This document shows positions 6,051-56,200 of a stretch of DNA of 64,000 nucleotides, in pieces (the stretch's first letter is position 1; each line of letters starts with the position of its first letter). Position numbers and translations under genes: made by a program. The notes beneath the pieces were generated by a model, which searched no databases, was not told where the DNA came from, and saw nothing but the letters and a program-made list of their open reading frames with translations. The DNA is from Vigna angularis (taxonomy: Eukaryota; Streptophyta; Magnoliopsida; Fabales; Fabaceae): contig NC_068976.1 in NCBI RefSeq assembly GCF_016808095.1, positions 35,272,371-35,336,370 of the forward strand, written 5' to 3'.

Positions 6051-7044
6051 GAGACCCAGGGACTTCAATTAATTCATTCATTCTCTCATACTCCTCTCAC
6101 TTTTCTTTCATCTTGTATTCAACTCCGTTCATGGAGTGCTAAGCATCTAGGGTTATTCTGCTGTAATTCCCTAATGGATTCTGAGGTTACGTTAAGTTAA
6201 TGCAATTGTTTATTTTGATTATTGATTTAAGTTGTTCTCTCTCTATGTCTTTCATATCTCTATCTTGTTAAAAGTAAAGATTGTTGCATCATAATGTGTT
6301 TGAATCTACATGCATATTGATTATATGAGTTCTAGGGTTTCTAGGTTTAATTGAGAATTTACTTTGATTTAATTTAGGAACTTTCATATGATTAAATGGT
6401 TTTTACTATCAATTGAGAATGTACTTTGGTTGGTAGTTGTCGCAACCGGAATCGCGACGGGACGACGATCCAAAAAGAAACGGATTTGGAAAAGAGATTT
6501 GGAGTCGCCACCATAGTTTATTCTGGAAAACTACGGAAAAACCATAAAATAATAAGACACGGTCCACGAAAACCAGATTTTGGGTTCGGGAGTCGGTTAC
6601 GTGTAGGGAAGGTATTAGCACCCTACAACGCCTGCCCGAAGGCAGTACCTTTAACTAAATGCACGAATATGATGTGGTTTTCAAAATGTTTAACTAGTCC
6701 CTAAAATAAAATTCTAAATAAACAAAATATATTTTTTAGTTTTTTGGGCCCGACAAGGATTGACCTTGCTCCTACGTATTCTCATTAAAAATGAGAAATC
6801 AGGGTTACGTAGTTCTTTTAGAAACTGTTGAGAAATTTGTTTGAAAATTTGTTTCAGAATTTGTTTGGAAAATGATTTGGATTTTTGGGAAAGTGAGCCT
6901 GACAAGGACTGGCCTTGCTCCTACGTATCTCCACTTTTGATGGAGAATCAAGGATCACGTAGTTCTGGCAGGAAATATTGTTTGCTGTTTGAAATTGTTG
7001 ATGTTTTTGGTTTTTGAAGATTTTATATGTTTTTGGTATTTTTA

Positions 7045-7850
7045 TTTAAGAAAGATAAAAGGTTCTTAGCACAAGGACGATGCGAGCGATCACACGTGTG
7101 CTTAACCTTTAAAACGTATTTTTGTAATTTTTATATTTAAGAGAGAAAAAAGGTTTTTAGCACAAGGACGATGCGAGCGATCACACGTGTGCTTAACCTT
7201 TAAAACGTATTTTTGTAATTTTATTTAAGAAAGAGGAAAAGGTTTCAGCACAAGGACGATGCGAGCGATCACACGTGTGCTTAACCTTTAAAACGTATTT
7301 TTGTAATTTTTATATTTAAGAGAGAAAAAAGGTTTTTAGCACAAGGACGATGCGAGCGATCACACGTGTGCTTAACCTTTAAAACGTATTTTTGTAATTT
7401 TATTTAAGAAAGAGGAAAAGGTTTCAGCACAAGGACGATGCGAGCGATCACACGTGTGCTTAACCTTTAAAACGTATTTTTTTGTAATTTTATTTAAGAA
7501 AGAGGAAAAGGTCTCAGCACAAGGACGATGCGAGCGATCACACGTGTGCTTAACCTTTAAAACGTATTTTTGTAATTTTTATATTTAAGAGAGAAAAAAG
7601 GTTTTTAGCACAAGGACGATGCGAGCGATCACACGTGTGCTTAACCTTTAAAACGTATTTTTTTGTAATTTTATTTAAGAAAGAGGAAAAGGTTTCAGCA
7701 CAAGGACGATGCGAGTGATCACACGTGTGCTTAACCTTTAAAACGTATTTTTTTTGTAATTTTATTTAAGAAAGAGGAAAAAGTTTCAGCACAAGGACGA
7801 TGCGAGCGATCACACGTGTGCTTAACCTTTAAAACGTATTTTTTTTGTAA
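7045..7850 (+). repeat. Tandem array of nine G-box palindrome repeats in the 3' LTR
   Basis: Nine units of roughly 80-95 bp each contain AGCACAAGGACGATGCGAGC followed by ATCACACGTGTGCTTAACC. CACACGTGTG is a perfect 10-bp palindrome holding a CACGTG G-box. Units come in two types that differ in the linker (TATATTTAAGAGAGAAAAAA versus TATTTAAGAAAGAGGAAAA) and roughly alternate. One unit has GAGTG in place of GAGCG. On the minus (element) strand a TATATATAA sequence lies just before the array near 7850-7860. Confidence 0.9.
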
Positions 7851-10209
7851 TTATATATAAATATTTTATTTTTTAAAACAAATAGATATTTAGAATAAAT
7901 AAATAAAACCAAATATAAACAATAAAAGCAATAACAACAATAGAAATGATAAAAACAAAACAAATAGTGGGGGTGCCCAAATGAGAAAGTGGGGCTGCAG
8001 AACAAAATTGGGGCTCCTTTGGCTTGTAGGAACGGAATGGGCTTCTATCCAAACAGAGGGGGGTGTGGATGGAGTGCGCGTGTGGCAGGAAGAAATGGGA
8101 AGCAAACCGCCCCAGGCCCAAGGCCTCTTAACCCTAATCAGAAACCCATTAGGGTTCCTCCAACTTCATCTCATTGGTAGGCAGCCCTGAGACCTAGGGT
8201 CATTTCTTCTGAAGGAAAGAAAACAGAGACGCCCATCTCTGCCACCCACGGCCATGACCCAGCCTCCCCACAAACCGGCCACCGCTAGCCGCGGTTCGCG
8301 GCGTCGTCAACGACGACAGACGCCACCGGAGCCACCGCCGGCCCCAACACCACGTTCCCCTCCTTCTTCTTCTCTTCGCGCGTGAGAGAAAAAACGCTTC
8401 CGTTCATCGCCGAACACCGCTTCCTCCGAAACCAGCCACTGCGCCACCGAAACCAGCCACCGCGCCGCCACCTCTTCCGGTCTTGGCGTCGGCGGCTACC
8501 CCAAGCGCCACCGGAACTGTCTCCAACCGCGGCGCCTCTCTCTCGTCCCTCTTTCTCGTCTTCGCCGGCAATGGGGAAATCCCCTTCCCCTACATTTTTT
8601 CACACAACACTGCCACCAACCGAATTCCGACAGTTACTCCCCCTTTTTTTGAACCTAGAGCTTGCAACCGACGATTATTCCCATACCCCTCTGATATCCA
8701 TTTTTCTATTTTGAGTGCTGGAATGAAGTTATGTGATGGGAAGCATGGTTGGGGTTAGGAACCAAGTGAGTTCTTTTCTGTTTTTCAGGTACAAGGTGGG
8801 GGAGAATGGAAAATGATGAAGAAGATGTTTCTCTGTCCAGTGAAAGAGGAAACAATTTGTGTATGTGAGGAGCAGAGGGGTTCGGTTCTTTCTAAGACTG
8901 GAAAACAATGGGTTTGGAACAGAAAAGAGGATTTAGCTTGGGTTGAGGATATGGAGGAAAAATGGTCCGGATGGTTTCAGAGGGCTGGAGTCAGTGCCCC
9001 TGGCCGCGGTCATGAGGTGTAAAGATGAAGATGAAGGTGATGAAGGCTGCTGGATGTTGGCCGCGTATACGAGTGGGGTTATGCGGTGTTATCGGTGACA
9101 CAAGGATGAAGGCGTTGGAGATGATGAGCAGGGCGTGAATGAGATAGGCCGTTTGGCCGGGGGGCAAGGTGTTGGAAGCGAACGTTCGGGAAAAGAGAAA
9201 TCCAGAGAGGACGATTGAATGGAAACGGGGATGAGGGCAGACACTATACACTGGGTATTTTGATTAACGTGTGAAGTCACAAACTGCTATGTAATGATCA
9301 AACATCTTTCATACGCATAACATCATTTATTCACACCCAATCTCACATTCATATCTAAATACGTAAGCAGAAGCATGCATTCCCATCAGACACGACCAAG
9401 AGTTTAGATAAAGAAAACTCACCTCCGCAGCTTTAAGACGTTTCTCCTTCTGAGTTCTCCTTCTTCTCTATTCTTGGCGAGAAGTTTCTTGTTCCTCCCG
9501 GGATGAATCCTCTTCCTCTGTCTCTTCTTTTTCGCAACCCCTTTTCTCCTCTGACGAGTGATGTCCTCGGATAGCCACCAGGATACCAGGATCCAGTTGA
9601 ATCAATGTCTTTTCTCTTTGTCTTTTTTTTTTCTTTCAGCCCTCTTTTTTTTCGTTGGCCAAGTCCTCTCTTTTCTCCTCTGTGAACTCTCCTCCCCCTT
9701 TTTTTGCTTTTGTGATTTTTGGTGTTAAGATGATGGACGTTGGCTGATGTTGGGTATGGTGATGGTCGTTGGCCGTATCTATTGGTTATTGGAAATAGGT
9801 GAAGATGAGGTGGTTACTCGTAAGAGGAATCCAAGGTTGGGGTTGATGTCGCTACGGTGGAGGGGAGTTTTCGGGTGTTTGAGATGGCGGCTTGCGAGGG
9901 AGGAAAAAAAAAGGTTGGAGTCCCTGTTCTGCCTGGTGAGTGAATAAGGATGTTCGTTTTCTTTGATGTCTTTCCCCCTTCAATCCGTGGAGTCCCCAAA
10001 TGGTTCTGGTGGTAGTGGTCCCAGGTTCTCCTTCCAAAGAAGAAAAGCCCAAGATAATGGGTTTCCTCGTGTTCCCCCAGAATGTTCCCTCGAATGTCTT
10101 CCCAAGAATGTTCCATTCTCTTGAATGGCGTAAAAGAACACTTTGCAGCTCCAGATGGCCACCCGTGGCAGACAACCCAGAAAGTGAAAGCGTCAGAGAA
10201 ACCCATACT

Positions 10210-11365
10210 GTAAGCCGCACTACTTTTGGACGCTCGTCAGCACTACTCTTGGATGCTCGTCAGCACTACTCTTGGGCGCTCGTCAAAATGAGATCCGCTA
10301 ACGAGCGCCTCCAGACTAACGCTCTTGAAGGATAAACGAAATAACCGAACGCCCAAACTCGAAACCGAACGTTCAAACCGAACGCTCACAGAGAAAACCA
10401 TACAGACCGAACGCTCAAAACTCAGTTCCCAAAATGAGACCGAACGTTCACAAGGAAAGACTGAGGATACCGAACGCTCGCAAGTTAAACCACCATTCGG
10501 ACGTTCGGCAAATAGGGAAAATGAGCGCCCGTTCTCATTGGTGAAAACCGAACGACCTTCAAAACTAATTGGACGAACGTTTGAAAGTTGGACGAGCGGT
10601 ACAACAAAGATAGGACGAGCGCTCCAAACCGAGGACGAACGTCCTCAGTATGACCGAACGCTTAAAGAATGCTTTACTATTTGGACGAGCGGTACAACAG
10701 TGATAGGACGAGCGCTCCAAACCGAGGACGAACGTCCTCACTATGACCGAACGCTTAAAGAATGCTTTACTATTTGGACGAGCGCTCCAAACCGAGGACG
10801 AACGTTTACTATTTGGACGAACGGTACAACAGTGATAGGACGAGCGCCCCAAACCGAGGACGGACGTTTACTATTTGGACGAGCGTTACAACAGTGATAG
10901 GACGAGCGATCGCATAGATCGAACGACGAAACCGAACGCCAGAGGACGAATGTTTGAAAGTTGGAACCATCAGGACGAACGATTAAGACGCTCCTTACGA
11001 GTGAGAACGAGCGGCAGAGGATGGGGACGCCACCCATGCCGAACGCTCGTTAAGACAAAATACCGAACGCTCAAAACACGCTTTACTATTTGGACGAGCG
11101 TCCAAATACTTCCGAACGCTCGCTCAAAACAAAAACGAACGAACGCTCAAATTATGAACGAACGCTCTACTATTTGGACGAGCGTCGCGACACTCGAAAT
11201 GCCGAACGCTCGCTCAAAACAAAAAACTAACGAACGCTCAGATTATATGAACGAACGCGCTACCATTTGGACGAGCGTCGCAACAGTGATAAGACGAGCG
11301 CTCCAGACCGAGGACGAACGTCCTCAAAAAACAGTATGACCGAACGCTCTTTCTGGAGGACGAAC
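10210..11365 (+). repeat. CGAACG/GACGAGCG-rich repeat region in the 3' LTR
   Basis: A kilobase-scale stretch is built from interspersed short motifs (ACCGAACGCTC, GGACGAGCG, GAGGACGAACGTCCTCA) and 90-bp higher-order units such as the one starting ACTATTTGGACGAGCG. In the element's own orientation this lies at the start of the LTR (U3). Apparent proteins of 100-190 residues here are Arg/Thr/Glu-rich shadows of the repeats. Confidence 0.85.
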
Positions 11366-11476
11366 GCTGTTATTATTATTTTTATTTTTATTTTTATTAT
11401 TATTATTATTTTTATTTTATTATTATTATTGAAAATAAATTTTATTAATCAACCCGGACGAAATTGAGTGTTGACA

Positions 11477-11490
11477 GCTGCCCCTCTTTA
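11477..11490 (-). other. Ogre polypurine tract
   Basis: On the minus strand TAAAGAGGGGCAGC abuts the LTR start TGTCAACAC. This is the expected primer for plus-strand DNA synthesis. Confidence 0.8.
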
Positions 11491-24658: not shown

Positions 24659-25267
24659 TCTGTCGCAACCGGAATCGCGACGGGACGACGATCCAAAAAG
24701 AAACGGATTTGGAAAAGAGATTTGGAGTCGCCACCATAGTTTATTCTGGAAAACTACGGAAAAACCATAAAATAATAAGACACGGTCCACGAAAACCAGA
24801 TTTTGGGTTCGGGAGTCGGTTACGTGTAGGGAAGGTATTAGCACCCTACAACGCCTGCCCGAAGGCAGTACCTTTAACTAAATGCACGGATATGATGTGG
24901 TTTTCAAAATGTTTAACTAGTCCCTAAAATAAAATTCTAAATAAACAAAATATATTTTTTAGTTTTTTGGGCCCGACAAGGATTGACCTTGCTCCTACGT
25001 ATTCTCATTAAAAATGAGAAATCAGGGTTACGTAGTTCTTTTAGAAACTGTTGAGAAATTTGTTTGAAAATTTGTTTCAGAATTTGTTTGGAAAATGATT
25101 TGGATTTTTGGGAAAGTGAGCCTGACAAGGACTGGCCTTGCTCCTACGTATCTCCACTTTTGATGGAGAATCAAGGATCACGTAGTTCTGGCAGGAAATA
25201 TTGTTTGCTGTTTGAAATTGTTGATGTTTTTGGTTTTTGAAGATTTTATATGTTTTTGGTATTTTTA

Positions 25268-26073
25268 TTTAAGAAAGATAAAAGGTTCTTAGCACAAGGA
25301 CGATGCGAGCGATCACACGTGTGCTTAACCTTTAAAACGTATTTTTGTAATTTTTATATTTAAGAGAGAAAAAAGGTTTTTAGCACAAGGACGATGCGAG
25401 CGATCACACGTGTGCTTAACCTTTAAAACGTATTTTTGTAATTTTATTTAAGAAAGAGGAAAAGGTTTCAGCACAAGGACGATGCGAGCGATCACACGTG
25501 TGCTTAACCTTTAAAACGTATTTTTGTAATTTTTATATTTAAGAGAGAAAAAAGGTTTTTAGCACAAGGACGATGCGAGCGATCACACGTGTGCTTAACC
25601 TTTAAAACGTATTTTTGTAATTTTATTTAAGAAAGAGGAAAAGGTTTCAGCACAAGGACGATGCGAGCGATCACACGTGTGCTTAACCTTTAAAACGTAT
25701 TTTTTTGTAATTTTATTTAAGAAAGAGGAAAAGGTCTCAGCACAAGGACGATGCGAGCGATCACACGTGTGCTTAACCTTTAAAACGTATTTTTGTAATT
25801 TTTATATTTAAGAGAGAAAAAAGGTTTTTAGCACAAGGACGATGCGAGCGATCACACGTGTGCTTAACCTTTAAAACGTATTTTTTTGTAATTTTATTTA
25901 AGAAAGAGGAAAAGGTTTCAGCACAAGGACGATGCGAGTGATCACACGTGTGCTTAACCTTTAAAACGTATTTTTTTTGTAATTTTATTTAAGAAAGAGG
26001 AAAAAGTTTCAGCACAAGGACGATGCGAGCGATCACACGTGTGCTTAACCTTTAAAACGTATTTTTTTTGTAA
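25268..26073 (+). repeat. Nine-copy G-box palindrome array in the 5' LTR
   Basis: This is the copy of the array at 7045-7850, with the same unit order, the same two linker types and the same GAGTG variant in unit eight. The array has not changed since insertion. Confidence 0.9.
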
Positions 26074-28433
26074 TTATATATAAATATTTTATTTTTTAAA
26101 ACAAATAGATATTTAGAATAAATAAATAAAACCAAATATAAACAATAAAAGCAATAACAACAATAGAAATGATAAAAACAAAACAAATAGTGGGGGTGCC
26201 CAAATGAGAAAGTGGGGCTGCAGAACAAAATTGGGGCTCCTTTGGCTTGTAGGAACGGAATGGGCTTCTATCCAAACAGAGGGGGGTGTGGATGGAGTGC
26301 GCGTGTGGCAGGAAGAAATGGGAAGCAAACCGCCCCAGGCCCAAGGCCTCTTAACCCTAATCAGAAACCCATTAGGGTTCCTCCAACTTCATCTCATTGG
26401 TAGGCAGCCCTGAGACCTAGGGTCATTTCTTCTGAAGGAAAGAAAACAGAGACGCCCATCTCTGCCACCCACGGCCATGACCCAGCCTCCCCACAAACCG
26501 GCCACCGCTAGCCGCGGTTCGCGGCGTCGTCAACGACGACAGACGCCACCGGAGCCACCGCCGGCCCCAACACCACGTTCCCCTCCTTCTTCTTCTCTTC
26601 GCGCGTGAGAGAAAAAACGCTTCCGTTCATCGCCGAACACCGCTTCCTCCGAAACCAGCCACTGCGCCACCGAAACCAGCCACCGCGCCGCCACCTCTTC
26701 CGGTCTTGGCGTCGGCGGCTACCCCAAGCGCCACCGGAACTGTCTCCAACCGCTGCGCCTCTCTCTCGTCCCTCTTTCTCGTCTTCGCCGGCAATGGGGA
26801 AATCCCCTTCCCCTACATTTTTTCACACAACACTGCCACCAACCGAATTCCGACAGTTACTCCCCCTTTTTTTGAACCTAGAGCTTGCAACCGACGATTA
26901 TTCCCATACCCCTCTGATATCCATTTTTCTATTTTGAGTGCTGGAATGAAGTTATGTGATGGGAAGCATGGTTGGGGTTAGGAACCAAGTGAGTTCTTTT
27001 CTGTTTTTCAGGTACAAGGTGGGGGAGAATGGAAAATGATGAAGAAGATGTTTCTCTGTCCAGTGAAAGAGGAAACAATTTGTGTATGTGAGGAGCAGAG
27101 GGGTTCGGTTCTTTCTAAGACTGGAAAACAATGGGTTTGGAACAGAAAAGAGGATTTAGCTTGGGTTGAGGATATGGAGGAAAAATGGTCCGGATGGTTT
27201 CAGAGGGCTGGAGTCAGTGCCCCTGGCCGCGGTCATGAGGTGTAAAGATGAAGATGAAGGTGATGAAGGCTGCTGGATGTTGGCCGCGTATACGAGTGGG
27301 GTTATGCGGTGTTATCGGTGACACAAGGATGAAGGCGTTGGAGATGATGAGCAGGGCGTGAATGAGATAGGTCGTTTGGCCGGGGGGCAAGGTGTTGGAA
27401 GCGAACGTTCGGGAAAAGAGAAATCCAGAGAGGACGATTGAATGGAAACGGGGATGAGGGCAGACACTATACACTGGGTATTTTGATTAACGTGTGAAGT
27501 CACAAACTGCTATGTAATGATCAAACATCTTTCATACGCATAACATCATTTATTCACACCCAATCTCACATTCATATCTAAATACGTAAGCAGAAGCATG
27601 CATTCCCATCAGACACGACCAAGAGTTTAGATAAAGAAAACTCACCTCCGCAGCTTTAAGACGTTTCTCCTTCTGAGTTCTCCTTCTTCTCTATTCTTGG
27701 CGAGAAGTTTCTTGTTCCTCCCGGGATGAATCCTCTTCCTCTGTCTCTTCTTTTTCGCAACCCCTTTTCTCCTCTGACGAGTGATGTCCTCGGATAGCCA
27801 CCAGGATACCAGGATCCAGTTGAATCAATGTCTTTTCTCTTTGTCTTTTTTTTTTTCTTTCAGCCCTCTTTTTTTTCGTTGGCCAAGTCCTCTCTTTTCT
27901 CCTCTGTGAACTCTCCTCCCCCTTTTTTTGCTTTTGTGATTTTTGGTGTTAAGATGATGGACGTTGGCTGATGTTGGGTATGGTGATGGTCGTTGGCCGT
28001 ATCTATTGGTTATTGGAAATAGGTGAAGATGAGGTGGTTACTCGTAAGAGGAATCCAAGGTTGGGGTTGATGTCGCTACGGTGGAGGGGAGTTTTCGGGT
28101 GTTTGAGATGGCGGCTTGCGAGGGAGGAAAAAAAAAGGTTGGAGTCCCTGTTCTGCCTGGTGAGTGAATAAGGATGTTCGTTTTCTTTGATGTCTTTCCC
28201 CCTTCAATCCGTGGAGTCCCCAAATGGTTCTGGTGGTAGTGGTCCCAGGTTCTCCTTCCAAAGAAGAAAAGCCCAAGATAATGGGTTTCCTCGTGTTCCC
28301 CCAGAATGTTCCCTCGAATGTCTTCCCAAGAATGTTCCATTCTCTTGAATGGCGTAAAAGAACACTTTGCAGCTCCAGATGGCCACCCGTGGCAGACAAC
28401 CCAGAAAGTGAAAGCGTCAGAGAAACCCATACT

Positions 28434-29496
28434 GTAAGCCGCACTACTTTTGGACGCTCGTCAGCACTACTCTTGGATGCTCGTCAGCACTACTCTTGGG
28501 CGCTCGTCAAAATGAGATCCGCTAACGAGCGCCTCCAGACTAACGCTCTTGAAGGATAAACAAAATAACCGAACGCCCAAACTCGAAACCGAACGTTCAA
28601 ACCGAACGCTCACAGAGAAAACCATACAGACCGAACGCTCAAAACTCAGTTCCCAAAATGAGACCGAACGTTCACAAGGAAAGACTGAGGATACCGAACG
28701 CTCGCAAGTTAAACCACCATTCGGACGTTCGGCAAATAGGGAAAATGAGCGCCCGTTCTCATTGGTGAAAACCGAACGACCTTCAAAACTAATTGGACGA
28801 ACGTTTGAAAGTTGGACGAGCGGTACAACAAAGATAGGACGAGCGCTCCAAACCGAGGACGAACGTCCTCACTATGACCGAACGCTTAAAGAATGCTTTA
28901 CTATTTGGACGAGCGCTCCAAACCGAGGACGAACGTTTACTATTTGGACGAACGGTACAACAGTGATAGGACGAGCGCCCCAAACCGAGGACGGACGTTT
29001 ACTATTTGGACGAGCGTTACAACAGTGATAGGACGAGCGATCGCATAGATCGAACGACGAAACCGAACGCCAGAGGACGAATGTTTGAAAGTTGGAACCA
29101 TCAGGACGAACGATTAAGACGCTCCTTACGAGTGAGAACGAGCGGCAGAGGATGGGGACGCCACCCATGCCGAACGCTCGTTAAGACAAAATACCGAACG
29201 CTCAAAACACGCTTTACTATTTGGACGAGCGTCCAAATACTTCCGAACGCTCGCTCAAAACAAAAACGAACGAACGCTCAAATTATGAACGAACGCTCTA
29301 CTATTTGGACGAGCGTCGCGACACTCGAAATGCCGAACGCTCGCTCAAAACAAAAAACTAACGAACGCTCAGATTATATGAACGAACGCTCTACAGTTTG
29401 GACGAGCGTCGCAACAGTGATAAGACGAGCGCTCCAGACCGAGGACGAACGTCCTCAAAAAACAGTATGACCGAACGCTCTTTCTGGAGGACGAAC
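28434..29496 (+). repeat. CGAACG/GACGAGCG-rich repeat region in the 5' LTR
   Basis: This is the partner of the region at 10210-11365 but one 93-bp unit shorter. The cluster of three substitutions near 29387-29395 (CTCTACAGTTTGG versus CGCTACCATTTGG) matches other units of the array and so looks like gene conversion or slippage. Confidence 0.85.
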
Positions 29497-30164
29497 GCTG
29501 TTATTATTATTTTTATTTTTATTTTTATTATTATTATTATTTTTATTTTATTATTATTATTGAAAATAAATTTTATTAATCAACCCGGACGAAATTGAGT
29601 GTTGACAGTAGTAATAATTTCAACTATAATCAATTGAGAATTTACTTTGATTGATTAGCTTTTAACTTGGTTAGGAGATTTAAGAATAGACATGATTAAA
29701 CACAATAGAATTTGATTGAGAATGTACTTTGGTTGAATTTATTGTGAATAATCTAGAAAGGTTTTGCATTTGATTGAGAATTTACTTTGGTTAAATGCAT
29801 GATCGCCCTCAAATTAATTAAGAATGTACTTTAATTAATTTGAAACTTAAACAATAATCAATTGAACAATTATCTGTGAATAACTAATGATGAATCTATC
29901 TTGGAAAAGCAGTGGAATTAGCCTATTTCATCGTAACTGTTTTTAAGTTTCTTATTTATTCTTTAAACACTCTTCAACCATTACTTTTATTCATAAGCAT
30001 TGCATAACATTCATAAGAGTCAGATATTCGAAAGCAATTCTGTGTTCGTTGGGAGACGACTCAGGGTTACGTTAACCCTATCTACTTTCTTGGATACTAC
30101 TTGGCAATACTGAAGTTTCCTTGAAAAGTAGTATTAATTTGATAGCTTCAACGACAGCCTATCA

Positions 30165-36631: not shown

Positions 36632-37840
36632 TGATAACAGTTGAAAAACTGTTATTTTTATACTTAATTTTGACCTTAAAGACAACCTTTATGACTTAGA
36701 AATTAGCTTGGAATCATGCTTCTGCTTAAGTTTTGGAAATAAGAGAGTTGGATGGGTTTTATGCTTGGTTTTCCTTGTTTTCGCAGGAATTAAGATGAAT
36801 TAGATGAAAGAAGTTGAAGTAGTAAGGAGCTGGACTCAGGAAAGGAAGTGAAAGTGCACAAAAGAAGAGCCGCAATCACCGCTAAGGGCCAAAACTGCAG
36901 CTGAGCGTTAATTCTGAAGACCCGCACTTACCGCTGAGCGGCAAAAGTGCCGCTGAGAGCCATTTATTTGGGCTTGGGCCTATTTTCTGTAATTTTTAGG
37001 AAACTATATAAGGTTTTAGCCGAATTAGGGTTAGTATCTTTGGACAGAAAGAGGCGAAATCACACTTTCTTCACCCCTTGGAGGAGGATTTTGGATACTC
37101 AAGCTCTATTCTTCAACTTCTAGGGTTCTATCTTTCATTCTTTCATTGTTTTTCATCTAGTTTCACCATGTCTATGGTGAACTAAACCTTCATTGTTGTT
37201 GGAGAACCGATGTAATCCTTTGAAACTCTCATGTATTGAATTGGTTCTATATTCTATATGCTTTCTTTCATTAATTGTTAGGGTTTTTCTTCTATACTCT
37301 ATGCATGCTTTGTTTAACTCATTCAATTGCATGATCATTGATGTTATTTGTATGGACACATATAAGTAAATCTAGAACTGAAGAAATTCTCCCAAGAGCA
37401 ATATTGCCTAGACATAGGGATAGGAAGATTGGTTGTTTTAAGCTTCTGTGCGAATGTAATGCATGAATAATTGCTAGGGAGACAAGACATTGTAAATTAG
37501 TGATTAGGAGTAGGCTTTCTTCACCGAGACATCGGGTTTAAGGTAAATTAGAAAGTGGCATTAACATTAATGAAGAAAGATGAATTCTTGAATACATGAG
37601 AGTGGATAGGATGAATCGGAAACCCCAACAACATCATCATTCCATATTTTACATCAATCACTTTTGCTTCTTTCGATCCAATTGATCAACACATGCATTC
37701 ATATTTATTTTTCAGTATTTGCATCTAAACCTACAAGATTTTGCTTGCAAGTCTAATTTAATCAACAAATCACATAATTGTTAATGAAACCTACAATGAA
37801 TGAGAAATTGTTAGTTGAATAATTACATTAACTTAAAACA
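36632..37840 (+). repeat. Plus-strand LTR of the same family as 1-1111
   Basis: It starts TGATAACAGTTGAAAAACTG and follows the left-edge LTR through the leader, the CACCATG region and the CGAGACATCGGGTTTAAGG block (about 37530). It then continues past what the window shows of the other copy. The right end is not clear and may be truncated. No coding follows, so it is a solo or broken LTR. Confidence 0.6.
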
Positions 37841-38424: not shown

Positions 38425-40676
38425 TTATGTGCTGAGACAAGATCGTTTAGAGACTAGATCGTCTAAGCAACTTAGGTTTTGAAGTTTAACAAAAACATTA
38501 GATGAAATATTGTCTGTATGAAATGTTGTTTTAAAGAAATAACGTACAAGAGAAAAATATTTTAAAACATCTTTTATAGACAAAAACAAGTTCATAATAA
38601 CATTTTCTAAACTATATTGTTTGATGAATGAACAATTTCTAATAAAAGGAAACGTCTCTCTTAATTAATCATCTTATAAATGAAATGGGTAACAAACAAT
38701 GTTTTACCAACAACATATAAACGTCTTAACAAACAGTGTCTTAACAAGCTAGCGTGTTATGAACAAAAACGTCTATCTCATGATAAAACTAAAGCTTAAA
38801 AAATGTTTTATTCAAAACAATTTTAATTCAAATAAAGCGTCTTATAAAATGTACCGTCTAACAAAAGACCGCTAAATGTTGCATAGTTCAAACAATTTTT
38901 TTGATAAAGCATCTAATGTTTTACACCATTTGATGATCATATATGTTGAATGTTTTACCAAACGATGCTTTTATTAATGAAATGACAAATGATAAAATGT
39001 TTTGAACACGTGACCTAAAGCTTATCAATGTTCAAAATATTTAATGCATGTACGATAAAGTGCTTTAATACTTGTATATCTTATTCTTGATATTTGTGCA
39101 GATCACAAAAGCATAAAGACTTGATCAGAATCACTACACCCAAGAAAAAAACATTGAGAGATATGAATAATATTTTGGGAATGTTTCCCTTAAATACTTT
39201 TGCTCTAACACATCGTACAAGCTACATTTTTCTAAAAGGCTATGCTAAGCTCTGTACCTCTACAAAGTAGACTTGAGTCCGACTTCTCACAAAAAGGCTA
39301 CATGCTCTACATGAAGTTAACTTCCACTACAAAAAAAGCTGGAATTATCTATTGATATTTACATACGGATTTTAATCTGTATATAATATTAATATTACAT
39401 ACAGATTTTACATAGGGATTCAAAAAAATAAGTTACATACGGATTTGTATCTACCGATAATCCGTATATAATATCCGTATGTAAATAAAGCACGTTGTGA
39501 TGGGAAAGTTATCTAAATATTAAATCCATATGTAATGAGATCTAATCTGTATATAATTAAAAGTGAATGTTTTTTACCGAAATTACATACCGGAAAAATA
39601 TTTTATTAAAAAAATTTAATAACGAGGTATTTCTTACGAAACCCTTTTCCCCATTTTAATAACTTCTTTTCCTCTGCTCTCTCGAACCTTCTTGATGGAA
39701 GACGCGAAGAAGACCGAGTGGATCGAATCGAATATAGTTTAAACTCTTGATGAAGGAAGTTAATAAGAGAACTCGAAAGAGGAGGAACGCACCTACAAAA
39801 CCCTAGGTTCGCGATAATACTCCAGGAGCGGAAAGGATTCGACGTAGAGTGAAAAATAGGAAGATTTTTCGGTGATAAATGTGAATTAGGTCGCGTGTTT
39901 GGTGGAAAAGGAAGATTCAAGAGTTGAATCGGTGAAAAGGTGCCAAAATGAGGATGTAATTGGTGGAAAAGATTATAGCAAGCACAAATCAAGTCGCAAA
40001 GTGTGATTTGGTGATGTGAATCACGACGATGAGGGCTCTGTGAGAGTGATGAGGTAAGGAGATTCACGAGCTCGAGAAGAAGCTAGGGTTAGGTTGTTGG
40101 ACTCGTGAAAGCTCAAACCGTTGTCGCTGCGTGACTGAGCTATTGTTCCATAACCACCATTGGGTTTTCTCACCTCCTACAAACGGTTAGGTTTGTGCTA
40201 ATGTTTGCAATTCATTGTTTTAGGTACTGTTTTAGGTTTAAGTAGTTTGAAGGTTTTGATCTTTAAGATACCGGTTTGTTCTTTTGTCATCGTTTTCTTC
40301 TGAATCTGATCTTGGCTCATCAAAGTGTAAAATAAAGTGATCCTTTTAGTGGAATTGCTCGTCAATATCAAATAAAGTAAAATGGTCCCCGTAAAATGGG
40401 ATTTGTTTCCTCTAGAGTGAACACACAACAAATCATGAAACTAAAGTTTTGATATGAAAATTTCAGAAGATCCTGCTTTCATGTGTTTTCAAATCAATCT
40501 TTTATTTGATGGCGATTAATTGAAATACCATTGATGAACCCAAAAGATTAAGTTTGAAATATTCGTATTTCATGCTTGCATACCATCTTTGCGTCGAAAT
40601 GCATTTGATCTCATTTAATGTAATTTGATCTCACTTTCAGCTTATCTTGCGGACTTCGTAAGTCATTCTTGTGAAA

Positions 40677-40820
40677 ATGGAGATGATAACTAATGTTACT
40701 GAGTATGAAGCAATTGCAAAGGAAAAATTGCCAAAGATGGTTTATGACTACTATGCATCAGGGGCAGAGAATCAGTGGACTTTGGTAGAGAATCGAATTG
40801 CATTCGCAAGGATTCTGTAA
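40677..40820 (+). pseudogene. Captured glycolate oxidase 5' fragment
   Basis: A 47-codon frame starting [18 protein letters not shown] continues through [17 protein letters not shown] and [10 protein letters not shown], then stops. This is the N-terminus of plant glycolate oxidase, the peroxisomal FMN enzyme of photorespiration. The rest of the enzyme (FMN-binding barrel, catalytic His, C-terminal targeting signal) is absent. A spliced-looking 5' leader (CTCACTTTCAG just upstream at 40630-40640) suggests genomic DNA, not cDNA, was captured. It cannot make a working enzyme. Confidence 0.85.
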
Positions 40821-41102
40821 TCTTCTTATCTCCAGAATCATGAACTCTATGTATCTGTTCTATCCTTTAGAAACTTGCTTTTCATCAAAATCTAAGTTGA
40901 ACTTTCTCTTGATTACTGAAGATGCTCATCAAGATTCTCGTGTTATGAGATTGCAACTTTCCTTCCTTCAATTATTTTTCACTTTTTTCTCATTCTGAAG
41001 CTCTGTTCTTATTATCTATTTGGTTCACATCAAGCAGATTCTAGCCACATATTCTTGTTGATGTAAGCAGGATAGACGTGTCATAACCAATTCTTTATAA
41101 TA

Positions 41103-41106
<4 letters not shown>

Positions 41107-41140
<34 letters not shown>

Positions 41141-41143
41141 ATA

Positions 41144-41182
<39 letters not shown>

Positions 41183-41189
41183 ATATATT

Positions 41190-41220
<31 letters not shown>

Positions 41221-41221
41221 T
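41107..41221. repeat. (AT)n microsatellite inside the Pack-CACTA
   Basis: Runs of AT dinucleotides broken by repeated TTTGTATATATTT blocks. Confidence 0.9.
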
Positions 41222-42404
41222 CAATGTTTTAATTGAGAAAAAGGTTTTTACAAGGACTTACACCTTATGTTTTTTTTGGACTCTTTGCAGCTATTGAATG
41301 GGTGAAGGGAAAATAAGGTGGGAAAGCAAATGGAGGAAGGAGGAAGTTTTGTCAATAAAAACACGTGACTTGTAGCTTCCAAAAAGTGAAAAAGTCTTGA
41401 TGTCTAAAAGTGCTGCAATGCTGGATTTCAATTTCATCACATAAAGTTTCTTGTTTCAGGTTCTTATCTTTGCTTGTATTGTTAGAGGGGCTATAAGGAT
41501 TCAACCTCAGAGTATCCATTGATTCAACACTTCTTTGATATTGTGCAGGGCTTGAGGTTAGGCAGCAACTACTGGTAAGGATTTCCCATGTAATTCTCTA
41601 AACTCTTGAGTTTGCTTATTTTGTCTCCTTACATACTAAAGAGATGCCATCAAGACAACTCATATTTCATGTTTTCTAGATTCCATATTTTTGAATCTCC
41701 ATTTTCTATGTAGTTATTGCTTTGAAATTTAGTCACTTATTCTAAAATTTACATTTTCACCTCATGTTATCACTGTTGAAGATGGATGGGGAGGTATTTC
41801 GCAAGAGCTATAGTTTCCTATAGTTTGTTTAATTATCTTAGTGTCTTTTGAAATCATAAATATATAAATGTTTAAGCTCACGTTGGATATTTAAAATTCT
41901 AAGAGCTCACGTTAGAAGTGGATAAAAGGGGATGTTAAAGCCTTCCCTACTCATTTGTTGGAATTTCTTACAATTGTCTATTGGTTGAATCATTATTGCA
42001 AAATGTACCCCATTAATTTCCTTTTAATATGCACTTTATGTTTAAAGTTATTTTTGTTGAAATGCATTCTTACCACAAATTTTAATATTACAATATCCAC
42101 AATGTTGACACTAGTGTTCTAATTTCAATATGAAATCCTTTGCAGCACCTTTTTAAGGAGTTATGGAAATGATATGATTAACATCGACCATTGTTGTTAC
42201 CATCATTTAAGAGTATTAATCCATCTAAATAGGTAGCATTTCATTGGTTAAATTATATGTTCATCTTGCTTCCTTCCTAATTAACCATGAAATGTTTAAT
42301 ATGATTTATTATCTTGGAAAGGCCATTTATGCAGGAATATCTTCATTCTTATTTAGTTTTTTTTAACCTTTCATGGGATGGATAAACATTTCTTAAAAGG
42401 GTTC

Positions 42405-42815
42405 TAAAATGTTGTCAAAGCTAGTAAGATGAAAATTTGGTGTTTAAGAGGCAGAATGAGCTTAAAGAAATTTACAGAGGAGTTCACATGGATGTCGATA
42501 GTGAATCTGTAAGACAGATTTTGACTAGTCTCATTGAATGTGCTACAAAACCTGTCATATTATCTCCTTTATATAGTTTTTAAAACTCTGTTTCTATTTT
42601 TCAAAACTATTTTCACTTAAATACTTTCAAAAATTATTGTTGTGTTTGTCCATAGTGTTTGGTATTGGTTCTAAATTTTCCTTGATTACTTTTGATTGCT
42701 TTGCAGGTAATGTTGATCTGTCTCATTTGCTTCAAAACATGGATGGTCAGATAAGACAAGCCAAGGAGCGAGCTCTAAGCGTAAGGATATCTTAGATATG
42801 ACTGGGAATCTTGTT
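42405..42815 (+). pseudogene. Captured MAP65 fragment with intron
   Basis: The first piece (about 42405-42545) reads ASKMK, then after a one-base frame slip LVFKRQNELKEIYRGVHMDV and DSESVRQILTSLIE. After an intron with a clear acceptor (TTGCTTTGCAG, ending 42706) the second piece reads GNVDLSHLLQNMDGQIRQAK and ERALS. A lost base then breaks the RKDILD stretch. This is the middle of a 65-kDa microtubule-associated (MAP65/PRC1/Ase1) protein, a microtubule bundler. Retained intron structure points to DNA-level capture. The frameshifts show it is not a functional MAP65 gene. Confidence 0.82.
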
Positions 42816-44141
42816 TTGTAAATAAATAGTTGTTGGAATTAGTTTTTATAATTTTATTCTGGTTTTAACAGTGTAGTCCATAATGGCTTGACATACTGTA
42901 AAGTTGAAATTTAATGTTAGAATATAATAGGTTATGATTTCGAGTTAGTTGAAAAATTTAGTTACACGTTATAAATCTAAAATTTGTATTAGTTATATAT
43001 TTGACACTGGATTCTTTTTAGTTCCACTTTGGTTTCAAGTATAAAGATACTAATGCTATAAAAAGATATTTTATATTAAATTAGTTATTCAAACATTTTT
43101 TTAATGTGTAAATTTTATGATAATATATAAATAATTTTTAAATTTTTTTTTTTGAAAATAAATAATTACATACGGATTCATATATACAGATATTATATAC
43201 GGATTTTTCTATATGTAAGTTACATACAGATTTTATATACGGATTTTTCCGTATGTAATTTATATATGGATTTTTTCGTATGTAATTTAGCTATGCTTAT
43301 TTTATATATGGATTTTTGTCCGTATATAATTCGTATATAATATAATTTTATATACGGATTTTGGATGTTATATACGGATTTTGACCGTATGTAATTGTGA
43401 TTTTTTTTGTAGTGTTCTTTGTATAATGATCATCTCTCAAAAAAAATCTACATATAGATGGATGCTTGAAGAAGTTTAAAGAAAAGAAGAAGAAGATAAG
43501 ATAGTGAACTCGTGAATGCTCAAACAAGCTTATTGTGCTCATAGATTGTCTGAAACTAAATTTTCTAAGAGAGAAAAACAAAAACCTTAATAATATCTCA
43601 TATTTATTTGTATTGTCTCTATCCTCTCTTCGACAGTTATCAATATGTATTTGTCCATAACATTGATTGTGTTGTAGATTCTGAAGAGAATTAAAACACT
43701 TGGTGTTTAGCTCAATTGAGTTAAACAGTCTAGACATGTTGTCTAGGGTTGAACTAGAAGTAGTTAGAATATTGCACACCAAGAGTAGTGAAACTCAAAT
43801 TAGTCGTGTTGACTAGGTGAACCAGTAGTGGTGGAATACTTGTTGTAAACTTGGAGAGGTAAAACTTGTATGATCTTCTTGAAGATTAGTGGAACCCCTT
43901 AAGAGTTCTTAAGAGAGAACTAGACGTAGCTCAGGTTGAGTAAACTAGTATAAAATTTGTGTTTTATTGTTTTGATTTTTGAAATGTTTTCCATATACGC
44001 TCTTCATAAAAACCAACATCTAATCATTTTATTTAAATTATATATCTGCTACAAATCATTATAAACTACTTTGGGAAAAAATTTTGAAAACACTATTTAG
44101 CCCCCTCCCCCCTCTAGTGTTTTTCCTATGTTTTCATTATG

Positions 44142-46439: not shown

Positions 46440-47945
46440 GGGTTACTACCGTAATTTTACGTGTTTCTTTCTCTCACACTCTCTATTTTGCCATAACCTA
46501 ATATTAATCTTTTCCCGCTTACTTCAGAACTCTCTATCATCGGTTTGCTTGAAAGCTTTCAGCTAAAGGATTTGGGGATAGAAGACCGAATCACAGTGAG
46601 TTTTACTTTGAGCGATTTATAGTTACGTCAAAATCTTTGTCGCGAAATTATGTTTTTTCCTGAATTATGTCTGATTTTAGGTTAGGAAGGAAAATGCCCA
46701 AAAAGGGGATGGGAACTTAAACTTGGATTGAAAAATTACTTAATGTTTGTTCTCTTTGGAATTTTTCCATCGTTCTTGTGCTGATTATGTGATGTTCGAT
46801 TTGACTCTTAGCGCTCTCACTGAAAATTTACCTCTGTACGTACTTAAAATATCTTAGAATTTCAAGCCTTTTCGTTTGAAGTGATTTTTTGTAAGAGAAT
46901 GGAGTTCAATGATAGCCGCTGAGTTAATTGAAGTTAGTTGGGGATATTATTTACTAAACTGGGTTGCACTGGATTTTGTCTTGTTTTGGAATGGATTATC
47001 GGTAGAAAAAATCAATCAATTTTCCATGGCCAAGGTGAAACAAATAATTCATTCTACCTTTTCATGGTTTCACTATCATAAGGTAGAATCGGTTCTCGTA
47101 TTTTGTTCAAACACGCTAATTGTTACCGGCCTGAACTTCAGTTAAGGGCCTTTTTGAAAACCTATTCGGTTTACGTTGTTTCTATTGGGCCAGATTTCTC
47201 AAACAGACTATACTGTTTTATTGGAAATTGGTTTTTTCAGAGACTCCCATTTTGTTCTGTGTTAGCTTTGTGGAGCTGAATTTTGGTTCAATTTTTCTTT
47301 AGGTGAGAATGAAGTCCATTTAGTTTTGAAATCAAATAAATTTATTCTCGCCTCAAAATATTAAAGAAAATAAACACTCAACAGTAGAACCAATAATTAA
47401 TGTGTACTTCATCTATCTGACTGATGTACAACACTAGGGCGTTTCCCCAGTTCTCTCTTTCTCTGTGTCTATCACCATCATAATTCATGAAGACACCATA
47501 TCCACGGTCAACTTAATCACTTTTGGTAAAACCTATCTTGCACCTCCTTCTTTCTCACATCAACACCTCTTCAATGTTCCCCATGGTTTAGGTCTTTTCT
47601 CTTTCTGTGGGTTTGTGAATCCATGTGCCATTATGTTTTTAATTAAATGCCACAATTATCACATAAATTCCTATGAACTTTAATGTGGAAAGCTGTTTGA
47701 TTTTAAGAATTTCAATGGATGAGCTTTCTACTAATGGCTCTTTGCTAACTGGGAATGAAACCATATACATGTTCAATGTTTGTAGAAAACTTGCCATTGC
47801 CATGATGCACTGTTGTTCTCTTAAATACCATTTACCCATTCAGTTGTTGCCTAGCTTACATCTAAAGTTCAAGTGACAGTTATCTCTTTTTTAACGATGG
47901 TGAAATTGCTCCTGCATTCTCTCATGTTTGGCTGCAATGTTTCAG
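46440..47945 (+). promoter_or_regulatory. Probable 5' leader exon and leader intron of the YqaJ gene
   Basis: The sequence changes near 46380 to a promoter-like region with a C/T-rich stretch (TTTCTTTCTCTCACACTCTC). A short ATG-free exon ends AATCACA at about 46597 before a strong donor GTGAGT. A matching acceptor (GCTGCAATGTTTCAG) ends at 47945, just before the YqaJ exon. Frames inside the intron have no domain. Whether this leader also serves the downstream SICKLE-like gene cannot be decided from sequence. Confidence 0.5.
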
Positions 47946-48090
47946 GCACCAAAGTTGCTGTTATGTGGATGCACTTGTTGCATGTCTAAGTAATAAGAGA
48001 AACTTTAGTAGTAATGCTTCTGTGCTGGTTTTTAGAGAAACTAAGCCTTGCTTCAAAAAACCTTCTAGAAAATTGCACGCACTTGGTGAT

Positions 48091-48885
48091 ATGTTAAAAT
48101 ACAGTTCTGTTGAAACTTATTCAGTCCTTCAAGCTAGCTGCCTTCAACATTGGTTTAAAAACTGGCAAGCACATAGGAGAAACAAATTGACAGCTAGCAC
48201 TTTTGCTGCTGCTATTGGGTTTTGGCGTCGACAAAGGGTCCAGCTGTGGTTAGAGAAGATTGGTGCTATTGAACCTTTCTCTGGAAACCTTGCCACCTGT
48301 TGGAGCAATATCAAAGAGGAGGAAGCACTTGAAAGATACAAACTGATAACTGGAAATACAGTGTTGTTTCCTGAATTTCAGGTATATGATTCACACCCAC
48401 AAGACAGCTGGCTTGCTGCTTCACCAGATGGTGTAATCGACAGTCTAGTGCATGAATTGCCTTCTCGTGGAGTACTGGAGATAAAGTGTCCATATTTCAA
48501 TGGGGACTTAAGTAAAGCTTTCCCCTGGTCTCGAATTCCAATTCACTATATTCCTCAAGCTCAGGGTTTAATGGAGATTCTAGGAAGGGATTGGATGGAT
48601 TTTTATGTTTGGACTCCTAATGGTAGTAGTCTATTCAGGTTACATCGTGATGCTGAGTATTGGGATGTAATGGAAATAGCACTGTATGATTTCTGGTGGA
48701 AGCATGTCCATCCAGCGAGAGAGTTGTATAGTAGTAATGTATTAAGAAGTCCCCTTTTTCAATTAAGAACAGTGAGGCCAGCTCCTAGGCATGAATTATG
48801 TAGAGATATTGTTTATAAAAGCAAACACATTGCTGCTAATTCTAAGTTGTTGATGCGGGAGATACATGGGAAATTGATAAATTGA
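48091..48885 (+). CDS. YqaJ-type (lambda exonuclease-like) nuclease domain protein
   Basis: This is a single coding exon. The first ATG in frame gives 264 residues (MLKYSSVETYSVLQ). The frame is open further upstream to the splice acceptor at 47945, so an N-terminal extension of up to 48 residues from another exon is possible. The fold is that of YqaJ phage recombinase nucleases. Counting from 47965 the residues are E120 (EEEALERYK), D155 (AASPDGVID), E172 and K174 (LEIKCPY) and Q200 (PQAQGLMEI), the full D...ExK metal-dependent nuclease set. It probably cuts or trims DNA ends. The compartment is unknown; with the extension the N-terminus (Arg/Lys/Ser-rich) could target an organelle. Such proteins are widespread in plants but poorly studied. 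Confidence 0.85.
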   Translation: MLKYSSVETYSVLQASCLQHWFKNWQAHRRNKLTASTFAAAIGFWRRQRVQLWLEKIGAIEPFSGNLATCWSNIKEEEALERYKLITGNTVLFPEFQVYDSHPQDSWLAASPDGVIDSLVHELPSRGVLEIKCPYFNGDLSKAFPWSRIPIHYIPQAQGLMEILGRDWMDFYVWTPNGSSLFRLHRDAEYWDVMEIALYDFWWKHVHPARELYSSNVLRSPLFQLRTVRPAPRHELCRDIVYKSKHIAANSKLLMREIHGKLIN

Positions 48886-53266: not shown

Positions 53267-56200
53267 TCACAAGGGTTTTTGCTCGCAACATATTTCATCG
53301 CTGAAAGTGTGTATGAGCTGGTCTGCTAAGCTTGCTGGGTCGTCGATCAATGCATCAACAAAAGCACTAACCACCCTTCTCTCCTGTTGAGTAGCCTTAA
53401 GGCTGAACCAAGTCAGAAATCTCACTCTGAATATTTCATCTATGTGCCCTAGATGCTCCAACCATTTCACCACCCTCACCGAATACTCGTAGTCATTTTC
53501 CTTCGACCGCTTTCTACCATTCAAACCAGGAATTTGCCTCATCTCGTAGGATTTACAAGGTGTCGAAGGTGAAACTGCAGCAGCAAGATTTTTATATGCA
53601 AAAGGCTCTAAACACTGAGGCTTCGACAGGAACTCTTCAAACCTTCCTCTGATGTTCAAACTCATGGGTTTCCCAGGTTGTTGTCGAGATGATAACTTCA
53701 TGTCGGAGTTGGCAGACTCTGTGGGATGATGAGTTTCAGCAGTTATATGATCCTGACCACACATTTCCACTCTAAAACGATTTCCCCCACAACTTATTCC
53801 TTTTCCAGAATTGGTGGGCTCACACTGGGTCACCCATTTAGCCTCTGCAGCACCCAAAATCCCTGTGCTGCTGAACAGAGAAGCCTTGCAAAAGTACTCA
53901 GTTGAAGGGTGCAGGTTTTCTAATTTGAATCTTTTCTCCGGCCTCAAGACGATGAAGGTGGGTTGTTCAGGGTAGTCTGTAGTTGATACTCTGTGCCAAA
54001 GCCTGCAGCCTAGAAAGTTCTTTAAAAGTTTGTCATTGTACTCCAGCACGATAACCACTGAAGTAGGAAGACACTCTTCAAAACGAATTGAACATGCTGC
54101 CGAATAAAGTCACCAGAAAAGTCATATCAGTACGGGTAATTAAAGCAAAATTTACTGATGCAAAAACAACACTGTTTAATGGTTCAATTGATTTACTTTA
54201 TTTGATCTCTCATGTTGTCATATCATATAATCATTTAGAAGAAATGCAATTTCATATTCTCAATCATTGTCTATCATGGAATGAGACTTGCCATTGCCAA
54301 TGTCTAAACCATTTAAGTCTTCTCCATATTGAAGAAAAACTGAAAAAGTAAAATTATTTAGTTCTTTCCTTTATTCCTCCATATTGAGAATAGTCATACT
54401 TGGAATTATTCTGGATCCAAAATTTCAAGACTACTGTATTTTATCATGAAAATCAAGATAAGTTCTGGTTCTGCCTGCCATTTGTTCAATAAAATGACCA
54501 TTGAAAAAATAATAAAAAGCTTACTTGGTGCATCTTTCTTTTCCACAGAAACAGAGAAAAGGTCAGAAAACTTTGAATCAAAACATTCAATTGCAGCTGA
54601 GCACAATCTCTGAACCTCAGCACCACATGAAAGCCGGCTTACAATTCCACGAGTCATCCTCGCATATACATGATCGAGTGATCCCACTTCATTCTCCAGT
54701 AATTTGAGAGCAGTTTCTACAATCTTTTGCAGTTCCTTGTACATTTCTGTTCCTACAAGAATTCTGTGAGCCAGGGATATTCGCAAAGACAGTATATCCA
54801 TTCTTCTTGCTTCTTTGGCAACCAATAATTGCTTTCTCCATGTCCTGTAAAATCCAAACATCCATTCCAAAAAACAAAATAAAATAAAAACTGTAGCTTA
54901 TATGAGCCACCTTACACTGCAACAGACCACTAATATGACTCTTTGTAATAACACCTCTTTTGTTAATAAGTTATCCCATTAACATGTGAACAGGTGACAA
55001 TTTATTAATAGGGTTTATAAAATTACGAATGAATGTATGTATGTAATTATCTATGCATATTTTACTTTTGCATGCTGATAAAGAAAAAGTATATAACCAA
55101 CTTACTTCATCAGTTCATTACTTTTTCCACAAGAAACACAACAGAAGGCTCCATCTAACTTAATACCACAACTACCCTTCAAATTGCCAGACATTTGACT
55201 ACTCAAAGCACATTGCAAATGACAGGACATTCCACATGACTCCTCATTGGGAAGATCAGAGCTGCAAGTCAACCACAAACTTGGATCCTTGTTATCATCA
55301 TAGCAATGACATATGCAACAAGAACATCTCTTGCAAAAAGAGTCGTCTGGATTCAATGTAGCTTTGCATGCGACATTTTGACACAAAAAGGTTTTCACTA
55401 CTTCCTCTTTAATGTTCTCTAGAGGTGCATGGTGTAAATCCTCAGATGCAGGTTTCTTTTTCCTTTTAGATCCAATGCAACTTCTGGTAGGAGCTGGCAT
55501 ATTTCCGGTTACGTGCAAGTTCGAGTTCTTAGAAATTATCTTCAAAAGATGTTCTATCATTTGACTCTTGGTATAGCCTGTATACTTCCTCTCTTTGCCT
55601 AATTCAGCACAGATTATTTCTAGAAGTTCCCTGCGTGTAAATGTCTGAAGCATAGTAGAGGCATCTTTTGACTGTCGTGCAATCTCATGGACTAGTCTTT
55701 GCTTTTCCGGCAAACTCAGCACACCCCATTTTGCAGGGTCAAGAAGAAAACCTGTAGAGAAACACAACATTGTTAGCTTGAACTTCATTACGTGTCTAAA
55801 GTGCTGATAAATGATGTTCAACACGACTTATATGGAAATATAGTTAACAAATTTACAATATGCATGACTGTCCTCTTGTGAATTAAACACTATATTTATC
55901 ATCTGCCAAAAATATATAATACGTTTACAAAAAGAAAAGACTAAAATAACACATGCAGAAGGTGCAATCCAGAAAAGAAATAAACCGTTATATACTGTGT
56001 TTAACATATAGTTTTCCAAACCAAACATTAATTCAAAATAATGCAACAATAACAACCTGCCAGTAGTTGAGCCATTATCACTATGCATTCTGAATATTAA
56101 AAAACTGAGTTCTCATTTGCATTAACCTCTAATACAGTTCGTACACTTCAATTCCAAATACATTATTATTATTAATATTATTATGAACTTAACAGCGCAT

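Follow-up and report, generated by a model that had tools for sequence, protein, structure and literature searches.

A close precedent for the locus described here is Tgm-Express1, a CACTA element in an intron of the soybean F3H gene, for which a length of about 5.7 kb, a cargo of five genes, and proven chimeric transcripts are reported (Zabala and Vodkin 2007, PMC1947982). For Arabidopsis Pack-CACTA elements, secondary accounts describe neighbouring insertions whose inner ends are lost, leaving a hybrid element (Catoni et al. 2019, via PMC13317346 and PMC8903248), and fused Pack-TYPE elements of rice and maize are presented as combining blocks of two elements, with several captured loci each (Gisby and Catoni 2022, PMC8903248). 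Inverted repeats of 145 to 158 bp are given for pvCACTA1 of common bean (PMC4938662). The element reported here lies in a 64,000-nucleotide stretch of the Vigna angularis genome (C7:35272371-35336370, here called the window) and carries pieces of a glycolate oxidase gene (GLO) and of a MAP65-5 gene. At the level of sequence, its ends and cargo confirm positions 39325 to 43414 as a CACTA (En/Spm) element of the Pack-CACTA type carrying host-gene pieces, and we consider it likely that this non-autonomous element arose by fusion of two earlier elements that each carried gene pieces, a GLO capture in one and a MAP65 capture in the other.

Like Tgm-Express1, this is a non-autonomous CACTA element of a legume whose inverted ends enclose pieces, both exonic and intronic, from several host genes unrelated to one another. 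Judged by this likeness, it belongs to an already known kind, with a close precedent in a related plant. However, the captured genes are different, and the transcripts of Tgm-Express1 are proven, whereas the present case is one of genomic sequence, but with relatives carrying each capture visible in the genome. The route proposed below is that described for Arabidopsis Pack-CACTA, whose mobilization is reported in real time, whereas here it is read from present-day sequence. The fused Pack-TYPE elements share with it the blocks of two elements and the several captured loci, the worked examples in the text of that paper being Pack-PIF and Pack-Mariner elements. As described, pvCACTA1 is likewise a legume element with CACTA ends and a 3-bp duplication, but here the repeats are 13 bp long and there is gene cargo. 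Among openly licensed papers, judged by titles and the beginnings of abstracts, there was no description of this element; in openly licensed papers, there was also no match for capture of phosphoenolpyruvate (PEP) carboxylase gene fragments by a CACTA element, and the letters of the inverted ends matched only unrelated work.

The left boundary, at 39325, reads TTC followed by CACTACAAAAAAA, and the right boundary, at 43414, reads TTTTTTTGTAGTG followed by TTC. The inverted repeats are identical at 13 of 13 positions, where at least 10 bp is the criterion for CACTA...TAGTG ends, and no third place in the window matches the 13-bp motif when one mismatch is allowed. The motif by itself is weak evidence and would leave room for a chance arrangement or an assembly artefact with no transposon at all, as two or more matches (one mismatch) also arose in 7 of 100 shuffles. 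However, the combination of CACTA...TAGTG, a perfect 13-bp inversion, and matching 3-bp flanks is found once in the window and in 0 of 100 dinucleotide shuffles, and the artefact explanation, to which we give practically no credence, is refuted by sister elements elsewhere in the genome with their own ends and duplications. The perfect ends and TTC duplication claimed in the initial annotation are thus upheld. At up to two mismatches, ACATACGGATTT occurs 18 times in the window, compared with 7.05 expected (18 was reached in 0 of 100 shuffles), and 15 of these matches fall within the two ends of the element. Pfam returned no match of any kind for the longest frame (158 codons) and no transposase for the cargo pieces, the shorter frames having been scanned in part. 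A 30-codon frame (41490-41577; RGYKDST...) was considered as a third gene piece; it had no match in the PDB, in Pfam, or in a protein collection from which only proteins of about 233 to 740 residues were candidates, and it is therefore not claimed as one.

The GLO piece is identified by Pfam (FMN_dh; 2.2e-6), by glycolate oxidase in the PDB (6e-20), and by a 94% match to GLO of Vigna unguiculata. A search of the genome (448,266,875 bp in 33 contigs) with 40600-41090 gave three candidates, all scored: this copy, C1:42058738-42059232, and C9:18453489-18453993. The place on C1 is a GLO gene, in which the translation of exon 1 is identical to 47 residues of V. unguiculata GLO and more exons follow. 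The donor sequence in the element starts 485 bp before the ATG and extends into exon 2; identity is 834 of 888 aligned bases, and intron 1 is complete with its splice sites. When spliced in silico, the piece encodes MEMITN...FARILF, followed by a stop codon at the position of R in the donor; four codons of exon 1 are changed, three of which alter the amino acid. The 888 sites hold 35 transitions and 19 transversions, a Kimura distance of about 0.064 (calculated by hand). A commonly used substitution rate is 1.3e-8. For CACTA elements in bean, a rate of 6.63e-8 is given (PMC4938662). The capture would date to about 2.4 million years ago at the first rate and about 0.5 million years ago at the second, a spread too uncertain for use, and no date is adopted.

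The second piece consists of two exon pieces that match MAP65-5 (86% to the Phaseolus vulgaris protein; E value, 4.5e-29); the reading frame shifts between NVVKASKMK and LVFKRQ. Since MAP65 reached only 0.05 in Pfam and the PDB gave nothing useful, this identity rests on the Phaseolus protein match, the frame comparison, the genome search, and the donor locus. Both pieces lie on the + strand with intron sequence kept, and the proteins closest to the cargo are from Vigna, Phaseolus, and Glycine. The genome search with 42390-42880 returned 22 rows: this copy, three rows at C5:3.698-3.700 Mb that make up the MAP65-5 donor gene, and 18 other places. Five of the latter match the whole query, one matches query positions 1 to 288, seven match the first exon piece and flank only (L027, L028, L030, L031, L038, L039, and L040), and in five the match starts only at about the second exon. 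An extra 1,647 bp in the donor intron (L048), starting with TGATAGG and ending near CCTAACA, is absent from the five elements compared and may have been inserted in the gene at a later time.

These matches bear out the claim of the initial annotation that pieces of two unrelated host genes are carried in the same orientation with introns retained. Both donors, whose absence from the genome had been named beforehand as refuting that claim, are present, GLO on C1 and MAP65-5 on C5. Its account of the cargo overlooked the partial exon 2 of GLO (41038-41080), the assignment to MAP65-5, and the sharing of that cargo with sister elements.

Five relatives with the MAP65 cargo were fetched at length (S44 to S47, the same as L044 to L047, and L049). 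Both ends and a 3-bp duplication are present in S45 (TCC), S46 (AAA), S47 (ATC), and L049 (TTA), with inverted ends alike at 11 or 12 of 13 positions; the ends of S44 are damaged. Eight of nine loci examined terminate in TTGTAGTG after the shared 3′ sequence. The extent in common with the window is 41993-43414 for S44, S46, and S47, 42071-43414 for S45, and 42702-43414 for L049, and substitution identity over the shared alignments is 0.970 for S44, 0.975 for S45, and 0.974 for S47; S46 aligns in two parts, at 0.994 and 0.962. The GLO block finds no match in any of these five. The window departs sharply from S44, S46, S47, and L026 at 41993, at the word TTATTGCAAA common to both sides, and all four S sisters and L026 have PEP carboxylase exons in the place of GLO (Pfam, 3.6e-8 and 8.9e-8 in S46). 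A pectin acetylesterase piece (7.6e-12) takes that place in all five loci of the exon 2 type (L032 to L036).

In L032 to L036, MAP65 exon 2 is fused to a foreign intron exactly at the splice acceptor (TGCAG followed by GTAATG), and the 3′ parts are 98.9 to 100% identical among themselves, which indicates young copies. Two further sister copies, L024 (C2:10268854) and L025 (C2:10238258), are about 30 kb apart and share the downstream flank ATCATTAATT; they are probably one element duplicated together with its surroundings. The word CACTACAAAAAAA is overrepresented in the genome, with counts of 268 and 295 compared with 76 and 78 for the reversed pattern. Eight elements with CACTACAAAAAAA at both ends (L009 to L016) were fetched as possible sisters and rejected, having ends like TTATTTAGAGGGGG and no cargo match. 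They form a separate CACTA family whose inverted ends differ little from those of the present element, with other subterminal sequence and a matching 3-bp duplication in seven of eight; L013 has one weak 41-bp subterminal match to the element described here.

The GLO capture is found again in a 3,639-bp element on C9 that is flanked by a TTA duplication and whose inverted ends agree at 12 of 13 positions. It shares 39652-41411 of the window, with gaps, at 89 to 94%, and both GLO junctions are the same in the two elements. In the GLO block, the window element, the C9 element, and the donor are about equally distant (834/888, 652/692 plus 87/95, and 644/681), as expected if a single capture was followed by an early split. 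Beyond the shared part, the C9 element runs on into a phytocyanin-like gene (3.2e-11 with frames joined; 0.044 and 0.016 for single frames). Cargo genes in these elements point in the same direction within their element in five of five cases, a number too small for testing.

An ordinary member of the sister family would be expected to show much the same closeness to the sisters throughout its length. At the 3′ end (42707-43414), the identity of the element to the five sisters is 0.952 to 0.965, versus 0.942 to 0.974 among the sisters. In the first 330 bp, it is 0.795 to 0.849 (local alignments of 159 to 275 bases), versus 0.895 to 0.962 among the sisters, and in the leader block at 39800-39967, it is 0.886 to 0.899, versus 0.946 to 0.982. 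Membership in the sister family thus holds for the 3′ part but not for the 5′ part. The two parts have different closest relatives, and the parent type of the 3′ part is found. One alternative is capture in place. In that case, errors in gap repair following excision would have introduced the GLO block, whether from the gene or from some other element, into an old and diverged sister-family member. Such an event would fit with the subterminal repeats, which are of the sister type at both ends, and with the leader block shared with the sisters. However, an old member should have diverged at both ends, and the leader adjoining GLO is also present in the C9 element, which means that the gene was not the immediate source of the GLO block; we regard capture in place as unlikely. 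The initial annotation had the element as a Pack-CACTA with two captures, as found here, and missed its mosaic origin.

Several observations weigh against a fusion. The C9 element has ends of another CACTA type, so that the GLO parent was either an unseen third element or had its ends exchanged more than once. In the 62 bp of leader that can be compared, C9 matches the sisters at 59 to 60 positions and the window element at 58, a comparison too short to decide, yet unlike the result expected of a simple GLO-lineage leader. The stretch 41412-41992 is unexplained, matching neither the C9 element nor the sisters. Subterminal repeats shift fast by slippage, and the 5′ comparison draws on the short local alignments given above. 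No dedicated transposase search stands behind the statement that none is seen in 39325-43414. The exact 5′ end is in no compared relative (the sisters and C9), with no completed genome search using 39325-39700. Thus, the ends recur as a repeat family, as had been proposed, in the subterminal repeats and the 3′ end only; the sister copies that had been looked for do exist, as MAP65 sisters with both ends, but those ends read CACTACAAGAAA rather than CACTACAAAAAAA, and the elements paired by CACTACAAAAAAA are the other family.

Under the fusion that we favor, one lineage would have taken up the GLO piece, from the upstream region to exon 2, a capture persisting in the C9 element, and a second lineage would have taken up MAP65-5 exons, which numerous sisters still carry. 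Two elements of these kinds, which had probably inserted near each other, may then have been excised as a single unit by their outer ends, the 5′ end of one and the 3′ end of the other, which would bring GLO and MAP65 into one element. The fused element would have inserted at a TTC site, moved in trans by a CACTA transposase. Given the other ends of C9, an unseen GLO element or one further exchange would also be needed.

A selectively maintained chimeric gene or small-RNA source acting on the parent genes would be consistent with the sense direction, with the intact GLO intron 1 and its splice sites, and with the chimeric transcripts described for Tgm-Express1. Against it are the stop directly after the GLO splice, the changed exon 1 codons (three of four altering the amino acid), and the MAP65 frameshift, and we hold such a role to be very improbable. 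The broken reading frames favor passenger DNA, which is most likely what the cargo represents despite the sense orientation and the preserved splice sites. If the host is affected at all, this would be through spliced RNA or small RNAs.

Table 1. Features of the CACTA element and its cargo (window coordinates)
Feature	Position	Strand	Basis
Whole non-autonomous CACTA element, 4,090 bp	39325..43414	+	Ends and duplication
TTC target site duplication, left	39322..39324		Flank read in sequence
Left terminal inverted repeat, 13 bp	39325..39337	+	Motif scan and shuffle test
Left subterminal ACATACGGATTT-type repeats, 7 matches	39361..39533		Motif scan
Leader block common to C9 element with gaps; 39800-39967 also common to MAP65 sisters (88-90%)	39652..40191	+	Alignments
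Captured GLO piece: upstream region, exon 1, intron 1, part of exon 2	40192..41080	+	834/888 versus C1 donor gene
GLO exon 1, coding part	40677..40816	+	Protein and donor comparison
GLO intron 1, 221 bp, length as in donor	40817..41037	+	Donor comparison
GLO exon 2 start, stop codon just past splice	41038..41080	+	Donor comparison
TA-rich microsatellite	41096..41220		Within element
Block common to C9 element, no source assigned	41186..41411	+	214/226
Stretch in neither C9 element nor sisters; contains 30-codon frame without relatives	41412..41992	+	Block comparison
3′ module common to MAP65 sisters	41993..43414	+	Block alignments
MAP65-5 exon piece 1, frameshifted	42407..42538	+	Protein match and genome search
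MAP65-5 exon piece 2	42707..42808	+	Protein match and genome search
Right subterminal ACATACGGATTT-type repeats, 8 matches	43166..43382		Motif scan
Right terminal inverted repeat, 13 bp	43402..43414	-	Motif scan and shuffle test
TTC target site duplication, right	43415..43417		Flank read in sequence

Elsewhere in the window, direct repeats of about 5 kb (6438-11477 and 24661-29608), 98.8 to 99.4% alike, flank long frames that by eye resemble gag and pol and probably belong to a young long terminal repeat (LTR) retrotransposon with very long LTRs. An inverted repeat (1-573 and 36969-37542; 86.8% alike) brackets this retrotransposon region. Two frames downstream of the CACTA element, 47866-48885 and 53267-55827, presumably resemble a YqaJ-type nuclease and a VIN3-like protein, respectively.

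Knowledge of how multigene cargo arises in DNA transposons comes largely from models, together with a small number of fused examples. In the present case, both donors, elements with a single capture, and the recombinant are present in one genome, and the order of capture, amplification, and fusion can therefore be tested by sequence alone, which makes this element a good case study, with no new principle. We also propose, tentatively and with the balance somewhat against it, that in this genome captured pieces pass as interchangeable cassettes among CACTA lineages that differ in their ends. This proposal draws on the presence of one GLO capture in two element types and on a 3′ platform, a MAP65 exon with its splice acceptor and the 3′ end, that is joined to at least three 5′ cargoes (GLO, PEP carboxylase, and pectin acetylesterase). 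If it is true, each swap would create a new spliceable combination, a form of transposon-borne exon shuffling whose steps are still visible.

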